Origin: Cloacibacterium caeni
Lineage (GTDB): Bacteria > Bacteroidota > Bacteroidia > Flavobacteriales > Weeksellaceae
Direction of reading: 5' to 3'
Length of the DNA: 64,000 nucleotides
NCBI RefSeq assembly: GCF_907163125.1
Contig: NZ_OU015319.1
Span: forward strand, 2,604,001 to 2,668,000
In this document: piece by piece, positions 8,916-47,161 of the stretch
How positions within the stretch are numbered: the first letter of the stretch is position 1
How the letters are laid out: each line of letters begins with the position of its first letter
The notes under the pieces: generated by a model
What the model saw: the letters and a program-made list of their open reading frames with translations, nothing else
Databases searched by the model: none
What the model was told of the DNA's origin: nothing
Translations under genes and position numbers: made by a program

Positions 8916-10376
8916 ATGTTTCTAAAATTTCTACAACTTGAACTCAAAAGTTTTGTGAGAAGTCCGCAATTTGCTGCGGGAATCTTAATGAAAATAGGAA
9001 TGCTGTTTATGTACGCATATTTGGCGCTTATTTTTGTAGGTGGAGCTATTGGAGTGTATTTCGGAGCGAAAAAAGTAGCTTATGAACCTATTCAACTTTT
9101 CAGCCGAATTTTCTTAGTCTACATTGCCATCGATTTGCTGTTGAAATATTTTATGCAGCAACTTCCTGCGGAAAACATCAAGCCATTTCTCACCATGAAA
9201 ATTTCTAAAAATCAAGTGGCAGGTTACACTTTGGTGAAAATTTTAGTTTCGTTTTTCAGTTGGGCGTTTTTACTTTTTGCGATTCCATTTGCAGCGCTTT
9301 TAATTTTTAAAGGAAATCTAAATGCAGTAACCGTTTTGCTTTATTTCGCAGCGTGTATTTCCATGGTTTTTATCAATACGTTTGTCAACACCATTATCAA
9401 TAAAAGTGATAAATTGATGTATAGTCTTTTTGGATTGATGGCGATTATTGGTGGATTGCATTACTTTGAAATCATAGATGTTTTGGCGATTTCTGAGCGG
9501 ATTTTCTACGGATTGTATCAAAATATTGGCTTCTTTATTATTCCGATTGTTGTATTGCTGGTTTTGGCGGTTTATACTTTCTCTTTCATCAAAAAGAATT
9601 TGTATTTGGACAGAGGTTTAGAAATGAAAAAAGCGGCAGGAAAAACCGAAAACATTGCTTTCCTCAATAAATACGGAACATTAGGAACTTTTATCAACAA
9701 TGATATTCGATTGATTAAAAGAAGTAAAGCGGCGAGAAGTGCTTTAATTGGTGGCGTTTTATTCCTTTTTTACGGGTTACTTTTCTTTAGCAAAGGTTAC
9801 AACACCAGTTTCATGCAAGTTTTTCTAGGAATTTTTGTAACAGGCGGTTTTAATTTTATGTTCGGGCAAAGGGTTCCAGCTTGGGACAGTTCTTATTATC
9901 CACTGATGATGACGCAAAATGTTCCTTACAAAGATTTTCTCAAAGCAAAATGGGCGCTTTTTGTGATTGCCATTTCGGTTTCTATGATTTTAGCAGTCGG
10001 TTATGCATTCATCAGTTGGGAATTTTATTTTACCATTTTTGCGGCAGGTTTATATAATTTGGGAGTAAACTCTTATCTCACTTTATTGGCGGGAGCTTAC
10101 AATAAAAAACCGATTGATTTGAACTCTGCTTCAAAAGGTTTTACAAGCGGACAAAACAATTTCAATATTAAAATTCCTGTTCTTTTATTGCCACAAATGG
10201 TTTTACCAATGGCTGTTTTCGGAGCGATGAAATATTTCTTCGGAATGACTCCGGCTGTAATGAGTTTAGGGATTTTAGGATTGATAGGGTTTCTGCTTCG
10301 AGATAAAATTTTCAACCTCATTGTAAAAATCTACAGAACTGAAAAATATTCTACCATTGCTGCTTTTAAAAAATAA
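8916..10376 (+). CDS. DUF5687 family membrane protein, probable ABC transporter permease
   Basis: A 486-residue polytopic protein with about ten to twelve hydrophobic segments. It starts MFLKFLQLELKSFVRSPQF, typical of DUF5687 proteins, and has a central soluble loop near 230-260 (LDRGLEMKKAAG). The gene is followed, after a repeat-filled 195-base spacer, by a stand-alone ABC ATPase. The pair most likely forms an exporter, but the substrate cannot be inferred. It is 49 bases after recN with no terminator, so read-through is likely. Confidence 0.75.
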   Translation: MFLKFLQLELKSFVRSPQFAAGILMKIGMLFMYAYLALIFVGGAIGVYFGAKKVAYEPIQLFSRIFLVYIAIDLLLKYFMQQLPAENIKPFLTMKISKNQVAGYTLVKILVSFFSWAFLLFAIPFAALLIFKGNLNAVTVLLYFAACISMVFINTFVNTIINKSDKLMYSLFGLMAIIGGLHYFEIIDVLAISERIFYGLYQNIGFFIIPIVVLLVLAVYTFSFIKKNLYLDRGLEMKKAAGKTENIAFLNKYGTLGTFINNDIRLIKRSKAARSALIGGVLFLFYGLLFFSKGYNTSFMQVFLGIFVTGGFNFMFGQRVPAWDSSYYPLMMTQNVPYKDFLKAKWALFVIAISVSMILAVGYAFISWEFYFTIFAAGLYNLGVNSYLTLLAGAYNKKPIDLNSASKGFTSGQNNFNIKIPVLLLPQMVLPMAVFGAMKYFFGMTPAVMSLGILGLIGFLLRDKIFNLIVKIYRTEKYSTIAAFKK

Positions 10377-10377
10377 T

Positions 10378-10500
10378 GATTAAAATTTGGGCGTGCCTTT
10401 TTTCCAAGCTTTCTTACAGAGCCAAAGCAAAAAAGTCGGTCTACACTTCCAATCTTTTTTTGCAAAAAAGGATTTCCAGTTTCGCCCTCACGCAAAATCA
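10378..10500. repeat. Dispersed intergenic repeat with a perfect poly-T/poly-A hairpin
   Basis: This stretch contains an inverted repeat at 10451-10474: AATCTTTTTT, a short centre, and AAAAAAGGATT, followed by TCCAGTTTCGCCC. The same layout recurs at 16395-16444, where the outer arms match and the tail reads TCCACTTCAATCGGGG. The upstream GGGCGTGCC and downstream CCCTCACGC words resemble a common flavobacterial intergenic repeat that I recall. No plausible gene lies here: a 73-codon frame across it starts at the preceding stop and translates the repeats. Confidence 0.6.
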
Positions 10501-10570
10501 CAACCAAAATAAATATACCAATTACCAAATACCAATTACCAACTACCAATTACTAAATACCAATTACTAT
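10501..10570. repeat. Degenerate 7-base tandem array ending one base before the ABC ATPase start
   Basis: Eight consecutive heptamers of consensus WTACCAA (for example ATACCAA, TTACCAA, CTACCAA, TTACTAA) tile 10515-10570. Two weaker units (CAACCAA, AATAAAT) precede them in the same phase. The start codon ATG is at 10572. Units differ by substitution, but no insertion or deletion breaks the seven-base phase. Confidence 0.85.
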
Positions 10571-10571
10571 C

Positions 10572-11279
10572 ATGATAAACATTCAAAATATTTCTAAAAT
10601 TTACGGAACCGCAAAAGTGCTTAACATACAAGAACTTACTATTCCCAAAGGCGAAACTTTCGGTTTGGTAGGAAATAACGGAGCAGGAAAAACCACGCTC
10701 TTTAGCTTGCTTTTAGATTTAATTGAACCCAGTTCAGGAAGTATTCAAATTGATGGAATTCAAGTGAATAAGTCAGAAAATTGGAAAAATAAAGTTTCGG
10801 CATTTATTGATGACAGTTTCTTGATAGGCTATCTTACTCCAGAAGAATATTTTTACTTTTTAGGCGAGTTGCGCGGACAAAACAAAGCTTCTGTAGACGA
10901 ATTTCTAAAACAATTCGAAGATTTATTCAATGGCGAAATTCTCAATGCTAGAAAATACATCAGAGATTTATCGAAAGGAAATCAGAAAAAAGTAGGAATT
11001 GTAGGCGCTTTAATTGGCAATCCAGAAATTATTGTTTTAGATGAACCTTTCGCGAATTTGGATCCTTCTACACAGATTAAACTAAAGAATCTTATTAAAG
11101 TGCTTTCTCAAAATGCAGAAGTCACCTTCTTGATTTCTAGCCATGATTTGGCGCACACTACAGAGGTTTGCAACCGAATTGTAGCCATCAATAAAGGAGT
11201 CGTGGTAAAAGATATTTCTACCAATTCTGAGACCTTGAAAGAATTAGAAGAATATTTTGCCAGTCAAGTAAGTTTATAG
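10572..11279 (+). CDS. ABC transporter ATP-binding protein
   Basis: A single ATPase domain of 235 residues. Visible motifs are Walker A GNNGAGKTT (about residue 35), a variant signature LSKGNQKKVG (about 135), Walker B IIVLDEPFANLDP (about 155) and the switch His in SSHDLAHT. It resembles drug/heme/gliding-type export ATPases such as CcmA or GldA. With the upstream DUF5687 permease it probably forms an efflux or lipid-linked exporter of unknown substrate. There is no Shine-Dalgarno-like sequence upstream. The start is immediately preceded by the heptamer array. Confidence 0.88.
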   Translation: MINIQNISKIYGTAKVLNIQELTIPKGETFGLVGNNGAGKTTLFSLLLDLIEPSSGSIQIDGIQVNKSENWKNKVSAFIDDSFLIGYLTPEEYFYFLGELRGQNKASVDEFLKQFEDLFNGEILNARKYIRDLSKGNQKKVGIVGALIGNPEIIVLDEPFANLDPSTQIKLKNLIKVLSQNAEVTFLISSHDLAHTTEVCNRIVAINKGVVVKDISTNSETLKELEEYFASQVSL

Positions 11280-11404: not shown

Positions 11405-11446
11405 CACTTCAATTTTGAAGATGAAAGAGAAGGTTTTTAGCTTCAA

Positions 11447-11481
11447 AAATCGTAAATCAAAAATCGTAAATCAAATATAAA
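11447..11481. repeat. 7-base tandem array abutting the fumarase start codon
   Basis: Four heptamers alternate AAATCGT and AAATCAA from 11447 to 11474. One degenerate heptamer ATATAAA fills 11475-11481, and ATG begins at 11482. The phase therefore runs exactly to the start codon. The alternation means the array can also be read as a 14-base unit repeated twice. Confidence 0.8.
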
Positions 11482-13089
11482 ATGGACTTTATTTACCAAG
11501 ATCCGTATCCAATTCTAAAGGATGACACTGTTTATAAAAAACTCACTTCAGATTACGTAAAAGTAGAACAATTAGGTGATAGAGAAATCTTAACCATTGA
11601 TCCAAAAGGTTTAGAACTTTTGGCGGAAAAAGCAATGGAAGATGTTTCTTTTATGCTTCGTTCTGAGCATTTGGCAAGTTTACGCAGAATTATAGATGAT
11701 CCAGAAGCTACTGATAATGATAGATTTGTAGCGTATAATTTATTGCAGAATGCTGCAGTTGCGGTAGAAGGTGCATTACCTTCTTGCCAAGACACAGGAA
11801 CTGCAATTGTGGTAGCAAAAAAAGGAGAAAATGTTTACACAGGTGTAGATGACGGTGAATTTTTAAGTCGAGGAATTTTCAATACCTATAAAAATAGAAA
11901 CTTAAGATATTCTCAGATTGTTCCTTTGAGCATGTTCGAAGAGAAAAATTCTGGTTCTAACCTTCCTGCACAAATTGATATTTATGCAAAAAAAGGAAAT
12001 TACTATGAATTTTTATTCTTGACAAAAGGAGGAGGTTCTGCGAATAAAACTTTCTTGTATCAAAAAACAAAATCTCTTTTGAACGATAAATCTTTAGAAG
12101 AATTTATCCGCGAAAAAATTATGGATTTAGGAACTGCAGCTTGTCCGCCTTATCATTTAGCATTAGTTATTGGTGGAACTTCTGCTGAAGCCAATTTAGC
12201 AGCGGTGAAAAAAGCATCTGCTAAATATTATGACAACCTTCCTACAGAAGGAAATATGGCTGGTCAAGCGTTCAGAGATTTAGAATGGGAGAAAAGAGTG
12301 CAAGAAATCTGTCAGGAATCTGCAATCGGAGCGCAATTTGGTGGAAAATACTTAACACACGATGTTAGAGTAATCAGATTACCTAGACACGCTGCTTCTT
12401 GTCCTGTTGGAATGGGTGTTTCTTGTTCTGCAGACAGAAATATCAAAGGAAAAATCACCAAAGAAGGAATTTTCTTAGAACAATTAGAAACCAATCCAGC
12501 GCAATATTTACCAGAAACAGCTCCTCATTTAGAACCAGCTGTGGAAATAGATTTGAACAAACCAATGCCAGAAATTTTGGCGGAATTGTCTAAATATCCA
12601 ATCAAAACTCGTTTGAAACTGAACGGAACACTGATTGTTGCAAGAGATATTGCTCATGCAAAAATCAAAGAATTATTAGACGCTGGAAAACCAATGCCAG
12701 AATATTTTAAAAATCACCCAATTTATTACGCAGGTCCTGCTAAAACTCCAGAAGGAATGCCAAGTGGAAGTTTCGGGCCTACGACTGCGGGAAGAATGGA
12801 CGTTTATGTAGACGAATTCCAGAAAAATGGTGGAAGCATGATTATGCTCGCTAAAGGTAACAGAAGCAAAGATGTAACCAATGCTTGTGCTAAATACGGC
12901 GGTTTCTATTTAGGTTCTATTGGTGGTCCTGCTGCAATTTTGGCTAAAGAAAATATTCTTTCTGTGGAAGTAGTAGATTTCCCAGAATTAGGAATGGAAG
13001 CGGTAAGAAAAATTGAAGTGAAAGATTTCCCTGCGTTTATCATTACAGATGATAAGGGCAATGATTTCTTTGCAGCTTTGGCGCATTAA
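11482..13089 (+). CDS. fum: Fumarate hydratase, class I (iron-sulfur)
   Basis: Interconverts fumarate and malate in the TCA cycle. The 535-residue protein has the class I layout: an N-terminal alpha domain (about 1-330) with [12 protein letters not shown] near residue 100 and [16 protein letters not shown] near 230, and a C-terminal beta domain (about 370-535) with [20 protein letters not shown] and [11 protein letters not shown]. Cluster-ligand candidates include Cys in SCQDTG, in [12 protein letters not shown] and in the [14 protein letters not shown] stretch. The product is oxygen-sensitive in other organisms. It is monocistronic, with its own terminator. Confidence 0.92.
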
Positions 13090-16483: not shown

Positions 16484-16525
16484 TTTTGTCTTTCAACTTC
16501 CGACTTCCATCTTCCAACTCCCGAC
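16484..16525. repeat. 7-base tandem array just upstream of the prfA -7 box
   Basis: Six heptamers of consensus TTCCRAC (for example TTTCAAC, TTCCGAC, TTCCATC, TTCCAAC, TCCCGAC, with TTTTGTC first) run in strict phase. They end seven bases before TATCTTTG, so they occupy the place where the -33 element would be. Confidence 0.8.
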
Positions 16526-16532
16526 TTTTTTG

Positions 16533-26518: not shown

Positions 26519-26536
26519 ATAATTTAAAATAATAAC

Positions 26537-26577
26537 AAAAACCTTCTTAAATTTTTTTAAATTTGAGAAGGTTTTAT
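26537..26577 (+). terminator. Terminator after the M48 gene
   Basis: AAAACCTTCT pairs with AGAAGGTTTT around an AT-rich centre that can pair further, and is followed by ATTTT. Confidence 0.7.
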
Positions 26578-26595
26578 TTTAAAAATACGTTAAAA

Positions 26596-38864: not shown

Positions 38865-41006
38865 ATGTCAATTACAGCTTCAATAAGAAAGAGACCTTGG
38901 CTATTATTAGGAATGATTATTATTGCACTTTTAGCATTTTTAATTAATCCTGAAAGCATGGACAAAATGTTTGGTCAAAATCCAAATATTTTGGGAAAGG
39001 TAAATGGTGAAGAAATCACTCGTGATGAATTTAATGACCAATTAAGTTTGTTACAACAACAATCTCAAGGGCAACCACAGCAAGGCTTAGAAGAACAGGC
39101 TTGGCAAATCTTGGTGCAGTCTAAATTAATCAAACAACAGTTTGATAAAATGGGGTTAAAAATTACAGATGAAATTTTCTGGAATCAATTACAATTTGAC
39201 CCAATGTTTTCTAAAGAACAGAATCCACAAAATTTTGACGAAAAAGGAAACTTTAAAGTTGCTGAAATTAAAAAGCAAATTGAAGAACTTAAAAATAATG
39301 GCGACGTAAACCAATATAATGAATGGCTAAAAGCTAAAAAGGCTATCGAATACAGAATGATGGCAAGACAGCTTTTTGCAAACGTTACTGCAGGAATTAC
39401 AGCCAACAAAAAAGAAGCTGCTGAACTAATGAAGCAAAGAGACGAAGTTGCTGATATAGACTTCGTGAAAGTAGATTATGCTGCTTTTGCTGCTAAAAAT
39501 CCAGTGAAAGTAACTACTGAAGATTTAGCAAACTATATCAAAAAACATCCTGTGATGTTTAAATCTGAAGCTGCTAGAAACTTAGGAATTGTATATTTTC
39601 CTGCAAAACCAAGTGCAGCAGATGATGCTTTAGCTCTTAAAGAAATCAACAAACTTTACAACGAAGGTGTAGATAATGGAAATGGCTTAGAAAGTTTCAA
39701 AAATACTCCGAACGATTCTATGTTCGTAGAATTAAACTCTGAAGCACAAATTAAATATTCATTTGTTTCTGACCAAGAAATTCCTCAAGAAGCGCAAGCT
39801 TTTGTAAAAGGAGCTTCTGTAGGTCAATTCTTCGGACCTTATAAATCAGGTGACAAATATTATGTAACCAAATTAGTAGGAAAGAGCAGCGCTACCATGC
39901 CTAAACACATTTTGTTTGCGTACAAAGGCGCAATGAGAGCAGATGAAAAGCAAACTAGAACCAAAGAAGAAGCTAAAAAATTAGCAGACAGCATTGGTGC
40001 ATTAGTAAAAGCTGATCCATTGAAATTCAACGAATATGTGCAAATGTCTGATGAGCCAGGTGCTGCGCAAAGAGGAGGCATGTTAAGTTGGATTTTAGAT
40101 AATGATAATAATTACGCTAAACCTTTTGGAGATTGGGTTAAAGGAAACGCAAAAGGAGCTGTAGGTGTGGTAGAAACTGATTTTGGTTATCATATTATTG
40201 TTAACGAAAATAAAATGCCAGTTTACAAAATTGCAAACTTAGCAAAAGACATCAGAGCTTCTAAAGAAACCGAAAACAAAGTATATACAGAAGCAAATAC
40301 TTTCATTCAGTCTGTTCAAGGAAAATCTTTCAATGATTTTGCAAACGGAGCGAAAAAGAAAAATTTCAATTTCCAAAATCCTAAATCTGTAAAAAGATTC
40401 CAAGGTCAAATCCAAGGTTTAGGAACAGATAAAGATGAAGAAATTTTAGCTTGGGCTTTCAATAAAGAAAGAGAAAAAGGAGAAACCAATATCTTTACTA
40501 CTGGTAATGGTGACTACATCGTAGTATACTTAAACGGTAAACAAGAAGCGGGAATTGCAGATCCAGAATCTGTAAGAGAACAAGTAGAACCAATTGTAAG
40601 AAATCAATTATTAGCGAAAAAAATCACTGAAAAAATTACTGCAAGCAAAGCAACAACTTTAGATGCAATTGCTAAATTGTTTGGTACGACTAAACAATCT
40701 TCGCAAGTAAGTTTATTCTCTCCATTTGTAGGAGGTGCTATGGAAGCTAAAGTTGCTGGAGCTGCATTTGGTGTTAAAAAAGGTAAAATCTCTAAACCAG
40801 TAGAAGGTGCAACTGGAGTTTTTGTAGTAACTCAAAAAGCGGTTAAGCTAAACAAACAACCAGGAGACGTTAAACAAATCATGCAAGCAATTCAACAACA
40901 AGGTGCTCAAATGTTTAGCCAATCATTAATGAAGAGTTTACAAGACAATGCTAAGATAGAAGATTACAGAATTGAAGTATGGGATAAAACTTCTCAAGCT
41001 CAATAA
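38865..41006 (+). CDS. ppiD: Peptidyl-prolyl isomerase PpiD-like (SurA N-terminal and PpiC domains)
   Basis: A periplasmic chaperone anchored in the inner membrane. After a short basic start there is one transmembrane helix (about 13-30, LLGMIIIALLAFLI), then a SurA_N-type domain (VNGEEITRDEFNDQLSLLQQ), a long helical region, the parvulin domain (about 345-455: MPKHILFAYKG to VGVVETDFGYHIIVNENK), and a C-terminal second half. At 713 residues it is longer than E. coli PpiD (623), as is usual in Bacteroidota. It has its own perfect terminator. Confidence 0.92.
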   Translation: MSITASIRKRPWLLLGMIIIALLAFLINPESMDKMFGQNPNILGKVNGEEITRDEFNDQLSLLQQQSQGQPQQGLEEQAWQILVQSKLIKQQFDKMGLKITDEIFWNQLQFDPMFSKEQNPQNFDEKGNFKVAEIKKQIEELKNNGDVNQYNEWLKAKKAIEYRMMARQLFANVTAGITANKKEAAELMKQRDEVADIDFVKVDYAAFAAKNPVKVTTEDLANYIKKHPVMFKSEAARNLGIVYFPAKPSAADDALALKEINKLYNEGVDNGNGLESFKNTPNDSMFVELNSEAQIKYSFVSDQEIPQEAQAFVKGASVGQFFGPYKSGDKYYVTKLVGKSSATMPKHILFAYKGAMRADEKQTRTKEEAKKLADSIGALVKADPLKFNEYVQMSDEPGAAQRGGMLSWILDNDNNYAKPFGDWVKGNAKGAVGVVETDFGYHIIVNENKMPVYKIANLAKDIRASKETENKVYTEANTFIQSVQGKSFNDFANGAKKKNFNFQNPKSVKRFQGQIQGLGTDKDEEILAWAFNKEREKGETNIFTTGNGDYIVVYLNGKQEAGIADPESVREQVEPIVRNQLLAKKITEKITASKATTLDAIAKLFGTTKQSSQVSLFSPFVGGAMEAKVAGAAFGVKKGKISKPVEGATGVFVVTQKAVKLNKQPGDVKQIMQAIQQQGAQMFSQSLMKSLQDNAKIEDYRIEVWDKTSQAQ

Positions 41007-41024
41007 TTCTTCTCAAAAATATTT

Positions 41025-41058
41025 AAAAGCGACTTTTTCTAGAAAAAGTCGCTTTTTT
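41025..41058 (+). terminator. Terminator of ppiD
   Basis: AAAAGCGACTTTTTCT pairs perfectly over 16 bases with the directly adjacent AGAAAAAGTCGCTTTT, followed by T-rich sequence. Confidence 0.85.
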
Positions 41059-41106
41059 TATAACAATCTGCAGAAATATTGAAACTACCATTACTTCAAA
41101 AAGTAG

Positions 41107-41114
41107 TATATTTG
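41107..41114 (+). promoter_or_regulatory. -7 box TATATTTG of the MCE gene
   Basis: A perfect TAnnTTTG match inside the longer open frame that begins with TTG at 41079. Its position 21 bases before GTG 41136 indicates that the GTG is the true start. Confidence 0.6.
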
Positions 41115-41135
41115 CGCATAAAAATTCATAAAATT

Positions 41136-42080
41136 GTGAAATACACTAAAGAAATAAAAGCAGGTTTAATAGCACTTTTAGCTATTGTAGGATTCGTTAT
41201 TCTTTTCCAGTTTATGAAGGGGAAAAGTTTCTTTACATCAGATAATATTTACTACGCAAAATTTGACAATGTAGACGGTTTAGAGCAGTCTAATCCAGTT
41301 TCTATCAACGGTTTGAAAGTAGGACAGGTAGATAAAATTCTTCCTCAAACAGCTAAAGACGGAACCATTTATTTTGTGGTTAAAGTTTTAGTGGATAAAG
41401 GTTTTAATTTTTCTAAAAATTCTACTGTAGAAATCTTTGAACCGGGAATTATGTCTGGTAAACAAGCAAGAATTCATTTGGTTTATGATAAAGCACCTTT
41501 TGCTAAAGATGGAGATACTTTAAGAGGAACTTTTCAATCTTCTTTGATGGCAAGTTTATCTTCGCAAGTAGGCCCTGTAAAAGACCAAGTACAAAGTGTT
41601 TTAACTAAACTAGATTCTACAATGGCAGCGACCAATAAAATTGTAGACGAACAAAACAGAAGAGAAATTAAAATACTTTTGGCAAGTCTCAACCAAACAG
41701 TTGCTTCTTTCAAAAATACTTCTGACCAAACCAATAGATTATTGGCTTCAAGTCAAGGTAGAGTAGAGAATGTACTTGATAATGCTAATAAAACTATGAT
41801 TTCTGCCAATGCTGCTGTAGAGAAATATGGAAAAGTTGCAGAAAGTATTGATACGAAACAGCTCAATCAAACAGTAGAAAGGCTTTCAGAAGTATCTAAT
41901 AAACTCAATCAAGTGATTTCTGGGATTAATAATGGAGAAGGAAGCCTTGGTAAACTGGCTAAAGATGAGGAATTATACAATAATCTCAATAAAACCTCAG
42001 AGAACCTTAATAGTCTAATTTTAGACCTTAAAGAAAATCCTAAGCGATACATAAATATTTCTGTTTTTGGTAAGAAATAA
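41136..42080 (+). CDS. MCE-family protein (MlaD-like)
   Basis: A lipid-binding component of an Mla/MCE transport system. From GTG 41136 the product is 314 residues: MKYTKEIKAGLIALLAIVGF gives a basic start and a single membrane helix. The MCE domain follows (about 35-110, DNVDGLEQSNPVSINGLKVG and the LVDKGFNFSKNSTVEI strand). The rest is a coiled coil rich in Asn and Gln. In Mla systems MlaD works with MlaF and MlaE. Those genes are at 27.6-29.2 kb, so the system may be split. It leads an operon with two Fe-S genes. Confidence 0.88.
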   Translation: MKYTKEIKAGLIALLAIVGFVILFQFMKGKSFFTSDNIYYAKFDNVDGLEQSNPVSINGLKVGQVDKILPQTAKDGTIYFVVKVLVDKGFNFSKNSTVEIFEPGIMSGKQARIHLVYDKAPFAKDGDTLRGTFQSSLMASLSSQVGPVKDQVQSVLTKLDSTMAATNKIVDEQNRREIKILLASLNQTVASFKNTSDQTNRLLASSQGRVENVLDNANKTMISANAAVEKYGKVAESIDTKQLNQTVERLSEVSNKLNQVISGINNGEGSLGKLAKDEELYNNLNKTSENLNSLILDLKENPKRYINISVFGKK

Positions 42081-42114
42081 TTAACGTATTTTTGAAAAAG
42101 AGAAAAAAATAACT

Positions 42115-43446
42115 ATGCAATATCTAGACAATATTTTATTCCTTGTTTTACTCATTGCTGGTTTCGGTCTGTTTTTTAAAAGTTTAAAAGAAATTTACCG
42201 AAATATAAAACTAGGAAGAGAAATCAATCGTTCTGATAACCCTTCAGAAAGATTGAAAACAATGGCAACTGTTGCTCTCGGGCAAAGCAAAATGAAAAAA
42301 CGCCCAGTTGCAGCATTCTTGCACATGATTGTTTACGTAGGTTTCGTGATTATCAATATTGAATTGATTGAAATCATTGTAGATGGAATTTTCGGAACGC
42401 ACCGTTTCTTAGCTTCAATTTTTGGAGATACACTTTATGGAATTTTTACTGCTACATTAGAAATTTTAGCTGCGCTAGTAGTTATTGCTGTAGTGGCATT
42501 CTTCATCAGAAGAAATGGTCTTAAAATTCCTAGATTATCTTCTATCGACCTAAAAGGTTGGCCAAAAAATGATGCCAATTGGATTTTGGTGATAGAATTT
42601 TGCTTAATGATGGCTTTTTTCAAAATGAATGCAGCAGATTGGTTGCTTCAGCAAAATGGCGTTTTAGCAGCACACGGAAGTTTCCCTGTTTCATCTAACC
42701 TTATTGCACCGATTTTTCAATCTTTCGGTTTCAGTGATGGGTTTTTACATTTCATAGAAAGAGGAGCTTGGTGGTTCCACTTTGTAGGAATTTTGTTCTT
42801 CATGAACTATTTATATTATTCTAAACACCTTCACATCATTTTTGCATTCCCGAATACTTGGTATGCTAATTTGGAGAAAAAAGGTAAATTCAATAATTTA
42901 GAATCTGTAACTCAAGAAATCAAATTAATGATGGATCCTAATGCAGATCCTTATGCAGCGCAACCAGAAGGAGCAGAACCTCCTGCAAAATTTGGCGCTG
43001 AAGATATTTTTGATTTGAATCAAGTTCAGTTACTGAATGCCTATTCTTGTACAGAATGTGGAAGATGTACTGCGGTTTGTCCAGCAAATATTACCGGTAA
43101 AAAACTTTCGCCACGTAAAATTATGATGTCTACCAGAGACAGAGTAGAAGAAGTAGGCAAAAACATCAACAAAAACGGAAAATTTGTAGATGATGGTAAA
43201 AAACTCTTAAACGATTATATTACCAAAGAAGAATTATGGGCTTGTACAAGTTGTAATGCTTGTGTAGAAGCTTGTCCAGTTCTTATAGATCCACTTTCTA
43301 TCATTTTTGAAATGCGTAGATTTATGGTGATGGAACAATCTGCAGCTCCACAAGAACTCAATATGATGATGACGAATGTAGAAAATAATGCTGCACCTTG
43401 GCAATATAATCAAGCAGACAGATTAAATTGGGCAAACGAAAATTAA
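42115..43446 (+). CDS. Membrane-anchored [4Fe-4S] protein (HdrC/FadF-like)
   Basis: A 443-residue electron-transfer protein. The N-terminal half has five or six hydrophobic helices (about 5-25, 65-88, 100-128, 150-170 and 215-245) with histidines that could hold heme (FLHMIVYVGF, WWFHFVGILFF). The C-terminal half has two ferredoxin-like motifs, CTECGRCTAVCP and CTSCNACVEACPV. The next gene encodes a CCG-domain protein, so the pair resembles the C and B parts of heterodisulfide reductase or the FadF-type quinone reductases that accept electrons from ETF. The donor and acceptor are not shown by the sequence. Confidence 0.82.
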   Translation: MQYLDNILFLVLLIAGFGLFFKSLKEIYRNIKLGREINRSDNPSERLKTMATVALGQSKMKKRPVAAFLHMIVYVGFVIINIELIEIIVDGIFGTHRFLASIFGDTLYGIFTATLEILAALVVIAVVAFFIRRNGLKIPRLSSIDLKGWPKNDANWILVIEFCLMMAFFKMNAADWLLQQNGVLAAHGSFPVSSNLIAPIFQSFGFSDGFLHFIERGAWWFHFVGILFFMNYLYYSKHLHIIFAFPNTWYANLEKKGKFNNLESVTQEIKLMMDPNADPYAAQPEGAEPPAKFGAEDIFDLNQVQLLNAYSCTECGRCTAVCPANITGKKLSPRKIMMSTRDRVEEVGKNINKNGKFVDDGKKLLNDYITKEELWACTSCNACVEACPVLIDPLSIIFEMRRFMVMEQSAAPQELNMMMTNVENNAAPWQYNQADRLNWANEN

Positions 43447-43518
43447 TGTGACAATGAGATGATGTGTTGATGCGAAAATTAGCACGTCAGCAAATTAACA
43501 AATTAGCATATTTACAAT
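43447..43518. repeat. 8-base tandem array exactly filling the gap between the two Fe-S genes
   Basis: Nine octamers occupy all 72 bases from the base after the upstream stop codon to the base before ATG 43519. The first three share TGTG/TGAG..GA (for example TGTGACAA, TGTGTTGA). The later ones share TTAGCAAA-like words (TTAGCACG, TCAGCAAA, TTAACAAA, TTAGCATA). The phase is never broken. No recognisable ribosome-binding site is present. Confidence 0.8.
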
Positions 43519-44304
43519 ATGGATTTCACTATAAAAACAATGGCAGAATATGCTGCCGAAGGAAAATCTCCAGAAGTTCTTTTTTGGGTAGGTTGTGCAG
43601 GAAGTTTTGACGATAGAGCCAAAAAAATTACCAAAGCATTTGCTAAAATTTTAAATAAAGTAGGAGTAGAATTTGCAGTTCTTGGGCAAGAAGAATCTTG
43701 TACTGGAGACCCTGCAAAACGTGCCGGAAATGAATTCATTTTCCAGATGATGGCATTAACGAACATAGAAGTTTTAAACGCTTACGAAGTAAAGAAAATC
43801 GTAACGGCTTGTCCGCATTGTTTCAATACTCTTAAAAACGAATACCCAAGTTTAGGGGGTAATTACGAAGTAATGCACCATACTCAGTTGCTTCAACAAT
43901 TGATGGAACAAGGAAGACTTAAAATAGAAGGTGGCGCTTTCAAAGGTAAAAAAATTACGTTCCACGATCCTTGTTATCTAGGAAGAGCAAATGATGAATA
44001 CGAAGCTCCAAGAGTTCTTTTAGAAAAATTAGATGCAGAATTGGTAGAAATGAAGCGTTGTAAAACCAACGGTTTATGTTGTGGAGCTGGAGGTGCACAA
44101 ATGTTTAAAGAACCGGAAAAAGGCAATAAAGATATTAATATCGAAAGAACAGAAGAAGCTCTTGCGCTTAATCCAAAAATTGTAGCAACAGGTTGCCCAT
44201 TCTGTAACACGATGATGACCGATGGTGTAAAACACTTCAACAAAAATGAAGAAGTAGAAGTAAAAGACATAGTAGAATTAATTGCTGAAGCAGATGATCT
44301 TTAA
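43519..44304 (+). CDS. CCG-domain Fe-S protein (HdrB/LutA-like)
   Basis: A 261-residue soluble protein with cysteine-rich CCG motifs that hold Fe-S clusters: a C near VGCAGSFD, the first set around TACPHCFNTLKNEYP, and the second set around CKTNGLCCGAGGAQMF and ATGCPFCNTMM. These are typical of heterodisulfide-reductase B and lactate-oxidation LutA proteins. It likely works with the membrane Fe-S protein encoded just upstream. Its last 11 bases overlap the AT-rich gene downstream. Confidence 0.88.
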   Translation: MDFTIKTMAEYAAEGKSPEVLFWVGCAGSFDDRAKKITKAFAKILNKVGVEFAVLGQEESCTGDPAKRAGNEFIFQMMALTNIEVLNAYEVKKIVTACPHCFNTLKNEYPSLGGNYEVMHHTQLLQQLMEQGRLKIEGGAFKGKKITFHDPCYLGRANDEYEAPRVLLEKLDAELVEMKRCKTNGLCCGAGGAQMFKEPEKGNKDINIERTEEALALNPKIVATGCPFCNTMMTDGVKHFNKNEEVEVKDIVELIAEADDL

Positions 44305-45439
44305 AACTAAAAAGTGGTTTTTAATAGACATTTTATATATATTAATTGCTTTAAGCTTTAGTATATATAGTTTTCAAAATAGAGAGTATGATTGGGATTT
44401 ACCAGGCTATTTGGGCTGCTTATTCGAGAGCGAGTACCCTGGAAATATTGAAAAAATAAAAAACGAAACTTATTTAAGTATAAGAAAAGAGGCTTCTCTA
44501 AAACAATTTGATAATTTAGTAGGAGCAAGTTCATATAGGAAAGTTTTATTTGAAAATGCAGACGCATTTAATGAACAATTACCTTATTATCAAATAAAAA
44601 TTGGGTATAATTTGTTAGTAAGAGCTTTTTATTTGATGGGATTTTCTGCTCCTTATTCTGTTTTGTATCTTAATTCACTCCTATTTTTTATTTCTATATT
44701 ATTTTTTTATTTTTCACTAAAAGCTATCTATTTAGAATATCCGTTTTTCGTTTTTTTTGCTTCTGTTTTGTTTTCATCATTGCCAGTTCTTCATTATTTA
44801 TCTAGAAATGCCACACCAGATATATTATTAGTTTTGCTATTATTAGTTTTTGCTAATTTTATTATAAATAATATAAATTCTTATTTTATTTTTTTTATTA
44901 TTTTTTTAATAATGCTTTCAAGACCTGATTACATTATATTTGGGTTAAGCTTTTATTTTTTTAAAATATTATATGAATATTTTTTATTAAAAAAAATTAA
45001 TGTTAATAATTTAATATTTATAATTTTAATTGGAACAGCCTATTTTTTAATAATTAAGTATTATAATTATCCTGGTTGGAAACATGTTTTTTATGACTCT
45101 TTTATTTATAGAAGGAATTATATAAGTGACCAAAATCCAGAATTTAGTTTAAAAACTTATATTGATATAATATTAAAAGGAATTGTTAACATGAAGAAAG
45201 TAATCCTTAGCTCATTATTTTTAACTTTAAGTATTCTATATTTAAGTAAAAATATTTGGATTAAATTTGTAGCTGTAAATTTATTTTTAAATATTTATTT
45301 AAAGTTTTTATTTTTTCCTGCTGCAGGTGAGTATAGATTTTATGTTCCCTTTATTTTTGCTTTATTTTTAATATTTTTATTTGAGTTGAGAAAAATTGAT
45401 TTTATTAAACTTAAAAAATATAATTTATTTAAATTATGA
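44294..45439 (+). CDS. AT-rich polytopic membrane protein, possible GT-C glycosyltransferase
   Basis: From ATG 44294 the product is 381 residues with about nine hydrophobic helices and one long outer loop between helices 1 and 2 (about 35-100, beginning REYDWDLPGYLGC). That layout, with acidic residues in the first loop, is seen in lipid-dependent GT-C glycosyltransferases, but I see no decisive motif. The DNA is much richer in A/T than its neighbours and uses ATA, TTA and TTT codons heavily, suggesting recent acquisition. It overlaps the gene before by 11 bases and the gene after by 4. Confidence 0.7.
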   Translation: MIFKTKKWFLIDILYILIALSFSIYSFQNREYDWDLPGYLGCLFESEYPGNIEKIKNETYLSIRKEASLKQFDNLVGASSYRKVLFENADAFNEQLPYYQIKIGYNLLVRAFYLMGFSAPYSVLYLNSLLFFISILFFYFSLKAIYLEYPFFVFFASVLFSSLPVLHYLSRNATPDILLVLLLLVFANFIINNINSYFIFFIIFLIMLSRPDYIIFGLSFYFFKILYEYFLLKKINVNNLIFIILIGTAYFLIIKYYNYPGWKHVFYDSFIYRRNYISDQNPEFSLKTYIDIILKGIVNMKKVILSSLFLTLSILYLSKNIWIKFVAVNLFLNIYLKFLFFPAAGEYRFYVPFIFALFLIFLFELRKIDFIKLKKYNLFKL

Positions 45440-45924
45440 AAATAGAAGAATCAACCATAGTAGAGACTAATGACTTTAAAGTCATTATTTATCCTGCTTC
45501 TAGAGCGTTAACTGCTAAAGAAGTAAAGGAAATTACGGAGAAATTGTATGATTTTCTTCCTACTTGGAATGCACATGGAAAAGGACTAACGTCTTCTTTT
45601 AAAATAGACCACAAGCAATTTATTATTATCACAGTAGACGAAGAAAAAGTACAGGCTTCTGGCTGTTCTATGGATTCTCTAAATGGTGTAATGAGAGAAA
45701 TCGAGGCAGAATATCAATTAGGAATTTTTGACAGAATGAAAGCTTGCTACAAGGAAAATGGTGAAGTAAAAACCATGAAATTGACCGATTTTAGAACTGC
45801 TGTTAGAAATGGTGAAATTTCAGAAGAAGTAGAAGTTTTTGATTTTTCTAAAGACACTTACGTAAATTATTTATCAGACTTTTTACTTCCTTTCAAGCGA
45901 AGTTGGGCTGGTTTTATCAAATAA
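45436..45924 (+). CDS. Conserved Bacteroidota protein, often mislabelled ABC transporter ATPase
   Basis: A 162-residue soluble protein with no Walker motifs. It has a conserved pattern that I recall from flavobacterial genomes: VIIYPASRALTAKEVKEITE, LYDFLPTWNAHGKGL, FIIITVDEEKVQASGCSMDS, and MKLTDFRTAVRNGEI. The Cys in ASGCSMDSL is a possible functional residue. Databases sometimes call such proteins ABC ATPases, which the sequence does not support. It normally follows the Fe-S gene. Here the AT-rich gene sits between them. Confidence 0.7.
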   Translation: MKIEESTIVETNDFKVIIYPASRALTAKEVKEITEKLYDFLPTWNAHGKGLTSSFKIDHKQFIIITVDEEKVQASGCSMDSLNGVMREIEAEYQLGIFDRMKACYKENGEVKTMKLTDFRTAVRNGEISEEVEVFDFSKDTYVNYLSDFLLPFKRSWAGFIK

Positions 45925-45934
45925 AATTCAATAG

Positions 45935-45960
45935 AGTCGGACTTTAGTCCGACTTTTTTA
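45935..45960 (+). terminator. Terminator ending the MCE/Fe-S operon
   Basis: AGTCGGACT pairs with AGTCCGACT over a short loop, followed by TTTTTTA. Confidence 0.85.
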
Positions 45961-46013
45961 TTTCAAACTTCAATTTGACTTTAGTCAAAATCTATTTCCT
46001 AGAAAGTTTTCTT

Positions 46014-46021
46014 TAAATTTG
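46014..46021 (+). promoter_or_regulatory. -7 box TAAATTTG before the polysaccharide cluster
   Basis: A perfect TAnnTTTG match. It overlaps the TTG at 46019 that would open the glycosyltransferase frame, so either the box is not used or translation starts later (TTG 46037). Confidence 0.5.
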
Positions 46022-47161
46022 TATAAAACTATCTGTTTGAACATTCATACACGACATAAAATTCTCTTCATTTCGTCTTGGTTTCCTAATAAACTTGAAC
46101 CTACGAATGGAAACTTTGTGCAGCGTCATGCAGAAGCCATTTCTTTGCTTCATGACGTGGAAGTTCTTCATGCGATTGGCGATTTTAACCAAAAAGAGAA
46201 ATTCGTTTTTGATGATCAAATTATCAATGGAATCAGAACGTTGATTGTGTACTACAAAAATTCAAAAAATCCACTCCAGAATTTTTTGAGAAGAATGAAA
46301 GCCTATCAATTGGGTTTCAAAAAAATGCAAAAGCCAGATTTGGTTCACGGAAATGTTCTTCATAACAATATGCTTTTTGCAGTTTCCTTGAAAAGAAAAT
46401 ACGGAATTCCGTTTGTGATTTCAGAACATTGGTCAGGATTTTTGTCAAAACAAAATAGAAAAACCATTGCCCTCGCAAAAATTATTGCCAAAAATGCTGA
46501 ATTGGTGATTCCTGTTTCCAAAGAATTAAAAAAAGGTTTACAACTCAATGGAATTGTAAAAGAAGCTAACGTAATTGGTAATGTTATAGATACGGATTTG
46601 TTTTGCATAAGTCAAGAAGCAAAAGACCAATTTATTTTCTTACACATCTCTAATCTAATTCCCTTAAAAAATTCAGAAAAAATTATAAAAGTTGCTTCAA
46701 AGTTGTACGAAAAGTATCCTCATTTTCAGTTGCAAATTGGTGGTGATGGAGATGAAGAAAAGTTAAAAAATTGGGTTAAAAAATATAAAGCAGAGGTTTT
46801 TACAAAGACTTTCGGATTACTTTCTCATAAAGAAGTAGCTAAAAAAATGCAACAATCCAGTTGTTTTGTGCTTTTCAGTGATATGGAAACTCAAGGAATA
46901 GTATTGCTAGAATCTTTATCTATAGGCGTTCCTGTTATTGCGACAAATGTGGGTGGAATTCCAGAAATTGTAGATAAAAAACGAGGGATTTTAGTTGAAA
47001 ATAACAATGAAGACGTACTTTTGGAGGCTATGAAAAGCATGTTAGAAAAAAATGTAGAATTAGATTCGTCTGAGGATTTAAGAAAATATGTTGTAGAAAA
47101 TTTCTCTAAGTCCGTAATCGCCGAAAAATTTTCTGAAATTTATAATCAAGTTTTATCATGA
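46019..47161 (+). CDS. Glycosyltransferase family 4 (group 1)
   Basis: Transfers an activated sugar onto a growing glycan. The N-terminal acceptor domain starts KILFISSWFPNKLEPTNGNF and has SEHWSGF near residue 140. The C-terminal GT-B half shows GDGDEEKLK and the EX7E motif in DMETQGIVLLESLS, then IATNVGGIPEIV. Family members usually begin only a few residues before KILFISSWFP. Here no ATG is available, and the choice is TTG 46019 or TTG 46037 (375 aa). The -7 box at 46014-46021 favours the second. It overlaps the next gene by four bases. Confidence 0.88.
   Translation: MYKTICLNIHTRHKILFISSWFPNKLEPTNGNFVQRHAEAISLLHDVEVLHAIGDFNQKEKFVFDDQIINGIRTLIVYYKNSKNPLQNFLRRMKAYQLGFKKMQKPDLVHGNVLHNNMLFAVSLKRKYGIPFVISEHWSGFLSKQNRKTIALAKIIAKNAELVIPVSKELKKGLQLNGIVKEANVIGNVIDTDLFCISQEAKDQFIFLHISNLIPLKNSEKIIKVASKLYEKYPHFQLQIGGDGDEEKLKNWVKKYKAEVFTKTFGLLSHKEVAKKMQQSSCFVLFSDMETQGIVLLESLSIGVPVIATNVGGIPEIVDKKRGILVENNNEDVLLEAMKSMLEKNVELDSSEDLRKYVVENFSKSVIAEKFSEIYNQVLS

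Follow-up and report, generated by a model that had tools for sequence, protein, structure and literature searches.

An inverted octamer array between two Fe-S genes of Cloacibacterium caeni and its probable membership in a dispersed class of repeat-built intercistronic palindromes of the Weeksellaceae

REP/BIME and REPIN elements are short imperfect palindromes, extragenic and often intercistronic, that occur in several copies per genome, and the heptameric STRR sequences of cyanobacteria are short tandem units dispersed between genes. Direct repeats of the heptamer TAACTGA have been reported in Beggiatoaceae, Cyanobacteria and five Bacteroidetes; in the portions of that paper drawn on here they are intergenic, show an orientation bias and end, in their largest class, 1 nt before a start codon, a translational role being proposed and one inverted case being given (MacGregor, 2015, PMC4679880). 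The octamer array described below and the arrays related to it have traits in common with all of these systems. Like REP/BIME and REPIN elements, they are short, extragenic, imperfect palindromes found between cistrons, apparently in several copies per genome; unlike them, they have arms made of tandem 7- or 8-mers and often fill the whole spacer between stop and start, one and the same junction can be occupied by different sequence groups, and the putative link to RAYT transposases consists of an association with Y1_Tnp. Short tandem units scattered between genes are also typical of the cyanobacterial STRR sequences, from which the present arrays differ in their inverted arrangement and stop-to-start placement. 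The resemblance to the TAACTGA arrays, as far as the portions cited above describe them, lies in short tandem intergenic units near the start codon, an orientation bias and a proposed translational role; however, one fixed heptamer is repeated directly there, whereas degenerate octamers form inverted pairs able to fold here. Octamer-built intercistronic hairpins are not described among the matches listed in the open-licence literature (titles and abstract openings), and the words "hairpin", "palindrom-" and "intercistronic" are absent from the main text of a flavobacterial transcriptome study (PMC9723704).

The array lies in a stretch of 64 kb of the Cloacibacterium caeni genome that was analysed as a whole and is called the window. 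It fills the spacer, nicknamed the hdr gap, between a TAA stop codon at 43444-43446 and an ATG at 43519 (Table 1), and the two neighbouring genes, taken for Fe-S genes in an earlier note made from the sequence, do carry Pfam 4Fe-4S domains upstream and a CCG cysteine-rich domain downstream. As that note had also stated, the gap consists of exactly nine octamers (72 nt), TGTGACAA TGAGATGA TGTGTTGA TGCGAAAA TTAGCACG TCAGCAAA TTAACAAA TTAGCATA TTTACAAT. Its self-identity at lag 8 is 0.61, the window averaging 0.28 (sd 0.06), and lags 16 and 24 give 0.61 and 0.54; none of 5000 dinucleotide shuffles equals this periodicity, even when any period from 5 to 15 was permitted. It is indeed the sole array of this kind in the window, where no other non-overlapping 72-nt stretch equals its lag-8 identity of 0.61. 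The absence of any remainder is correct as arithmetic (9 x 8), but it is partly due to chance, because stretches that begin up to 6 nt upstream, within the stop codon or the codon before it, are equally periodic. Similarly, the shift of consensus noticed along the array is present, but its cause is a change of strand, since the left half is built of TTTGCTAA-type units and TTAGCAAA, found in the right half, is TTTGCTAA read on the other strand; right-half units such as TTAGCAAA are likewise reverse complements of AATTTGCT-type units. The gap is made of two octamer arrays in opposite orientation, not of one drifting array, and the earlier suggestion of two fused arrays is right but incomplete, the two being inverted and able to pair with each other. 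The array at 43447-43518 has an 8-nt unit unlike TAACTGA, contains no direct TAACTGA repeats and reaches the start codon.

Table 1. Features of the hdr gap and its two flanking genes (window coordinates).
Feature	Position	Strand	Basis
Upstream gene: 443 aa, 4Fe-4S dicluster domain at the C-terminus	42115..43446	+	ORF list and Pfam
Left arm: four (A)ATGTGNN-type octamers	43447..43478	+	Sequence, periodicity, predicted fold
Right arm: five octamers of TTAGCAAA type (left unit reverse-complemented), up to the start codon	43479..43518	+	Sequence, periodicity, predicted fold
Inner stem of 12 bp closing a 6-nt loop (43460-43471 paired to 43478-43489)	43460..43489	+	Predicted fold
Downstream gene: 261-aa protein with CCG cysteine-rich domain	43519..44304	+	ORF list and Pfam

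Together the two arrays are predicted to form an imperfect stem-loop spanning stop to start. Around the inner stem, an outer interrupted helix, which takes in the stop codon, is predicted between 43443-43455 and 43494-43506; a third, small helix joins 43507-43512 to 43516-43521 and contains the start codon. The gap with its flanks has an MFE of -18.6 kcal/mol and a modest z of -2.33, 5 of 200 shuffles folding equally well. The window's genome and the three nearest to it in the genus (three distinct sequences among the four) differ at a single base of the loop and at two of the stem; both stem substitutions swap G-U and A-U and retain their pairs, and there are no double changes in the stem. 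Across these genomes the predicted structure is paired in 84/84 cells, a figure that the shuffle control also gives (100%), with 32-43% for slid structures. Covariation was set aside as proof of the stem, one double change with an unfavourable covariation term having been found in 1 of 18 pairs and no consensus structure having been obtained from an alignment of 41 elements. The MFE z-score was dropped as a stand-alone marker of the elements because array-free co-directional gaps score as well (mean z -2.59, n = 64, vs -2.19 for array gaps, n = 20); many of these comparison gaps, by eye, hold terminators and some hold other 7- or 8-base repeats. A stem-loop predicted in the gap between two genes might also be read as a transcription terminator or attenuator, but on the + strand this gap gave no terminator-like match and no T-run behind the stem, and the right arm extends to the start codon, which makes this reading very improbable. 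Rfam 15 yielded no match above the gathering score within 41000-46100.

The same gap was followed in relatives through 80 loci encoding the downstream protein, from which 20 gaps of 40-160 nt were folded (that of the window and 19 of L001-L024); L002 (38 nt) and L016, L017, L019 and L021 (616-640 nt, with space for another gene) were left out of the folding, and L025-L080, with gaps from 4 to over 1000 nt, out of the gap analysis. The best period is 8 in 14 of the 20, the window included. The gap measures 72 nt in the window's genome and in three other genomes of its genus, and 74, 76, 77, 78, 79, 81, 82, 84, 86, 88 or 90 nt in 13 more distant period-8 relatives, the only multiples of 8 being 72 (window) and 88. 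With a single one of these 13 relatives fitting a multiple of 8, the length of 9 x 8 is mostly a coincidence. The earlier note had expected the gaps of related strains to differ by multiples of 8, as they would if a variable number of octamers set the distance between the genes. The exactly nine units and the octamer runs of differing length found elsewhere would suit such a spacer, but the lengths compared between species show no 8-nt steps and the four nearest genomes all have 72 nt, so that of all the readings considered here this one is the least probable.

As regards folding, z is below -2 in 7 of the 20 gaps and above -2 in 13; L014 (the same locus as L140), L018, L020 and the own-genus G003 and G004 fold no better than shuffles. 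G003 and a partial G004 copy have gaps of 84 and 95 nt with neither an array nor a significant fold, and no upstream gene turned up for a second copy in G004. The fifth genome of the genus, G006, has an 80-nt gap with an octamer hairpin of z -3.38; this hairpin and that of L007 differ from the window's own, since their similarity to it is no higher than that of shuffled sequence. Among nine Chryseobacterium and Elizabethkingia loci, chosen for sharing one array type, gap identity exceeds that of fourfold sites in 36/36 pairs (mean 0.87 vs 0.48), an excess smaller than it appears because the aligner yields about 0.75 on shuffled gaps. In the comparisons with Elizabethkingia L015, fourfold identity is 0.31-0.45, gap identity 0.81-0.91 and shuffled-gap identity 0.73-0.78.

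Very probably, the gap is a member of a class of palindromes built from 7- or 8-base repeats that is dispersed in co-directional spacers of the Weeksellaceae. A three-unit pattern is present in 191 of 246 genomes of this family and in 54 of 198 genomes of a phylum sample, with peaks in some genomes (e.g., 69+52 overlapping matches in G460 and 67+79 in G408, the maximum in any one genome being 146), and some congeneric genomes have none. In the window's own genome, the strict pattern AATTAGCAAATTAGCAAATTAGCA (up to 3 mismatches) gave no match, having missed other arrays because the unit is degenerate; a looser pattern found 10 matches spread over 8 places, one of which is this gap, and none in the control, and the idea that the array is unique in its genome was rejected. 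The other gap-like copies there are only partial paralogues. One of them, at G000:C1:2839536-2839594, is 75% identical over 59 nt, and G001, G002 and G005 contain matches equal to it in score and span.

The neighbours of 69 arrays (from G000, G129 and G098, minus one G098 contig-end array, and from a sample of other loci) are co-directional in 56 cases, convergent in seven and divergent in four, one array lying inside an ORF and one at an edge; ORF ends were set by a simple caller based on ATG starts, orthologous junctions recur among the 69, and L092 is tallied as convergent although its neighbours are co-directional, the ORF floor of 80 aa having missed an ORF of 75 aa. When the left unit type is called F and its reverse complement R, the pattern-detected mixed arrays with two flanking ORFs read F then R in 26 of 27 cases, R-F-R in one and R then F in none; the 27 cover 19 distinct pairs of flanking-ORF lengths, and there are orthologues among them. 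Of the 17 F-only arrays, 12 are no more than 12 nt from the upstream stop and 4 no more than 12 nt from the start; of the 11 R-only arrays, 10 are this close to the start and 1 to the stop. The inverted octamer architecture, its recurrence and, in many cases, its wall-to-wall placement are established. G098 is atypical, with long direct octamer runs and four of its nine arrays in convergent gaps. The long direct runs of AATGTGGT type are located at G098:C11:34258-34519, C3:150356-150441 and C17:4-89, and the assembly may break at C3 and C17, because the runs sit at contig ends there. In G129, five octamer arrays follow each other with an exact spacing of 102 nt behind a paaD-like gene (L131, G129:C11, approximately 10139-10584).

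In Chryseobacterium, a 24-mer core, CATTGGTAAACTGKTACATTGAYA (up to 1 mismatch), occurs in 66/108 genomes with 0-6 copies each (control matches 0). The elements of the hdr gap, of the paaA/paaB junction and of three further junctions can be aligned, and identity across junctions is 0.82-0.86. Thirty CATTGGTAAACTGKTACATTGAYA loci were retrieved; the 22 with both flanking ORFs called are all co-directional and 21 of them are in sense orientation, orthologues included. For 39 of the 41 elements compared, the nearest neighbour belongs to the same junction, so the copies are mostly inherited, and these relationships point to an old dispersal followed by inheritance. An origin without function, by selfish spread or by slippage, is a serious rival to a hairpin kept for its fold. 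The selfish version supposes a dispersed REPIN- or MITE-like palindrome, moved by a Y1/RAYT-like transposase and tolerated mainly between stop and start, with no benefit to the host. It would account for the same core at unlinked junctions and, at paaB/paaC, for the occurrence of both filled and compact states (see below); moreover, Y1_Tnp is commoner in genomes with arrays (156/191) than in array-free ones (26/55; Fisher p ~1e-6, kinship and genome size ignored). On the other hand, 35 of the 191 array-bearing genomes, G006 and G030 included, have no Y1_Tnp match, the copies are mostly inherited, no paaB/paaC gap looks decayed (0/98), and the sense bias would be odd under random insertion, although counted by junction type it is only 7/8. 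We regard the selfish origin as possible, on balance unlikely.

One array cluster of Chryseobacterium is, by Pfam, the phenylacetate operon. The paaB gene was found in 107 of 108 genomes, all of which were analysed (30 loci and 77 stretches). In nine of the 107 the paaB/paaC junction is an overlap or abutment (seven at -1, two at +1), and the five of these that were inspected read TAATG. The remaining 98 gaps measure 68-142 nt; fold z is below -2 in 89 and the periodicity significant in 79, and every one of the 98 has either z < -2 or a significant period of 7 or 8 (60 shuffles each), none having neither. At the foot of the hairpin, the outermost pair lies at a median of 4 nt past the stop codon and 14 nt before the ATG. 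These gaps fall into five or six groups that can barely be aligned (six by motif), with a mean between-group similarity of 0.01-0.14 of the excess over shuffled sequence; a single pair of groups reaches about 0.3. Clustering by single linkage yields ten clusters, of which six have 8-25 members. That one orthologous junction can hold different sequence groups is established. The paaA/paaB gap measures 41-170 nt in 82 of the 107 genomes, the others being longer (20), unresolved (4) or 40 nt (1); the best period is 7 or 8 in all 82 (significant in 80), z is below -2 in 49, and the free stretch before the start codon is 7 nt in one of the two main groups and 17 nt in the other. A 28-nt REP-like motif, TGTCATNCTGAGCNNNNCGAAGNATCTC, lies inside some paaA/paaB hairpin loops (e.g., L161, L167, L171); it was found in 21 of 30 genomes, with up to 34 copies in G199, and several copies form facing pairs about 70 nt apart.

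Conservation of the paa gaps was assessed in same-group pairs that had 40 or more fourfold sites and a fourfold identity under 0.60, the paaA/paaB comparison being restricted to genomes with a filled paaB/paaC. In six group-junction sets, normalised gap identity is greater than normalised fourfold identity in 164/164, 26/26, 13/15, 65/79, 522/527 and 2/2 pairs; two further sets have no clear excess (34/64 and 51/124 pairs, the latter from mixed clusters). Of the seven paa groups that comprise more than two pairs, five show a clear excess, and conservation in most of the groups tested is established, with the reservation that pairs are non-independent, that grouping by motif favours similarity and that the fourfold baseline of 0.35 is assumed. 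These data bear on the second functionless origin, neutral slippage with hairpin template switching, in which octamers would duplicate and one arm would be copied from the other. Such a process could have produced the octamer expansion seen elsewhere in the family, namely the long AATGTGGT runs of G098, as well as the five regularly spaced arrays of G129, and a period of 7 or 8, not a multiple of 3, is what non-coding repeats would be expected to have. It is nevertheless rather improbable, given the conservation above fourfold sites in most groups, the cores common to unlinked loci and the lack, among all 107 paaB/paaC junctions, of any spacer that is neither folded nor periodic.

From the placement, the fold and the different hairpins found at one junction, we infer that the element acts in the mRNA and at the junction itself. 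The reading that we prefer, with a probability of about one half, is an intercistronic mRNA hairpin that resembles REP/BIME elements in location, is kept for its fold and probably acts on translation. Selection for the fold is, taken by itself, somewhat favoured. A connection of the octamer gap to translation, raised in the earlier note, is plausible, and side effects on mRNA stability are likely by analogy with REP/BIME elements. Known models of translational coupling permit unfolding by the upstream ribosome. The stem would keep the stop codon of the first gene and the start codon of the second near its foot, and a ribosome ending the first gene would open this foot and thereby influence initiation at the second, the hairpin being in effect a structural substitute for a stop-start overlap. 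According to the part of one study used here, Bacteroidetes lack Shine-Dalgarno signals and have their initiation tuned by structure and by certain bases (PMC6847099), and the foot of a hairpin close to the start codon can therefore be expected to matter. In the sections of a review cited here, structure directly past the stop codon is correlated with weaker coupling (PMC12548453). Coupling is weakly preferred over insulation, and translational coupling in particular is a tentative proposal that we hold to be unlikely as it stands.

More speculative still, and doubtful, is a generalisation in which junctions such as paaB/paaC would constitute a "hairpin slot", occupied either by a stop-start overlap or by a repeat-built stem-loop joining stop to start. 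Repeat groups would interchange there since selection would see only the fold and the free stretch before the start, and the slot would serve as a sequence-independent coupling or insulation device in bacteria without Shine-Dalgarno signals. If the fold is kept, the gaps are natural replicate experiments, in which the same gene pair is joined by an overlap or by very different hairpins, and the role of intercistronic structure becomes testable in bacteria without Shine-Dalgarno signals; what deserves following up is the occurrence of different hairpins at one junction. Even if they are selfish, the elements account for a recurrent spacer feature of the family, and such arrays are easily misread as single-locus, length-variable repeats.

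Other spacers of the window have repeats or folds of their own. An ACCAATT-type array of period 7 at 10515-10567 ends 4 nt before the ATG at 10572 and has, by eye, no inverted partner, representing a single-arm case, and an array of period 7/14, TCAAAAATCGTAAA, stands at 11443-11475 just ahead of an ORF start at 11482. A 77-nt co-directional gap at 26519-26595 has a very strong predicted fold (z -6.2) and a best period of 10. Finally, at 16490-16527 a CTTCCAA-type array of period 7 is followed by TTTTTTGTATCTTTGC, which we take to resemble a Bacteroidetes promoter.
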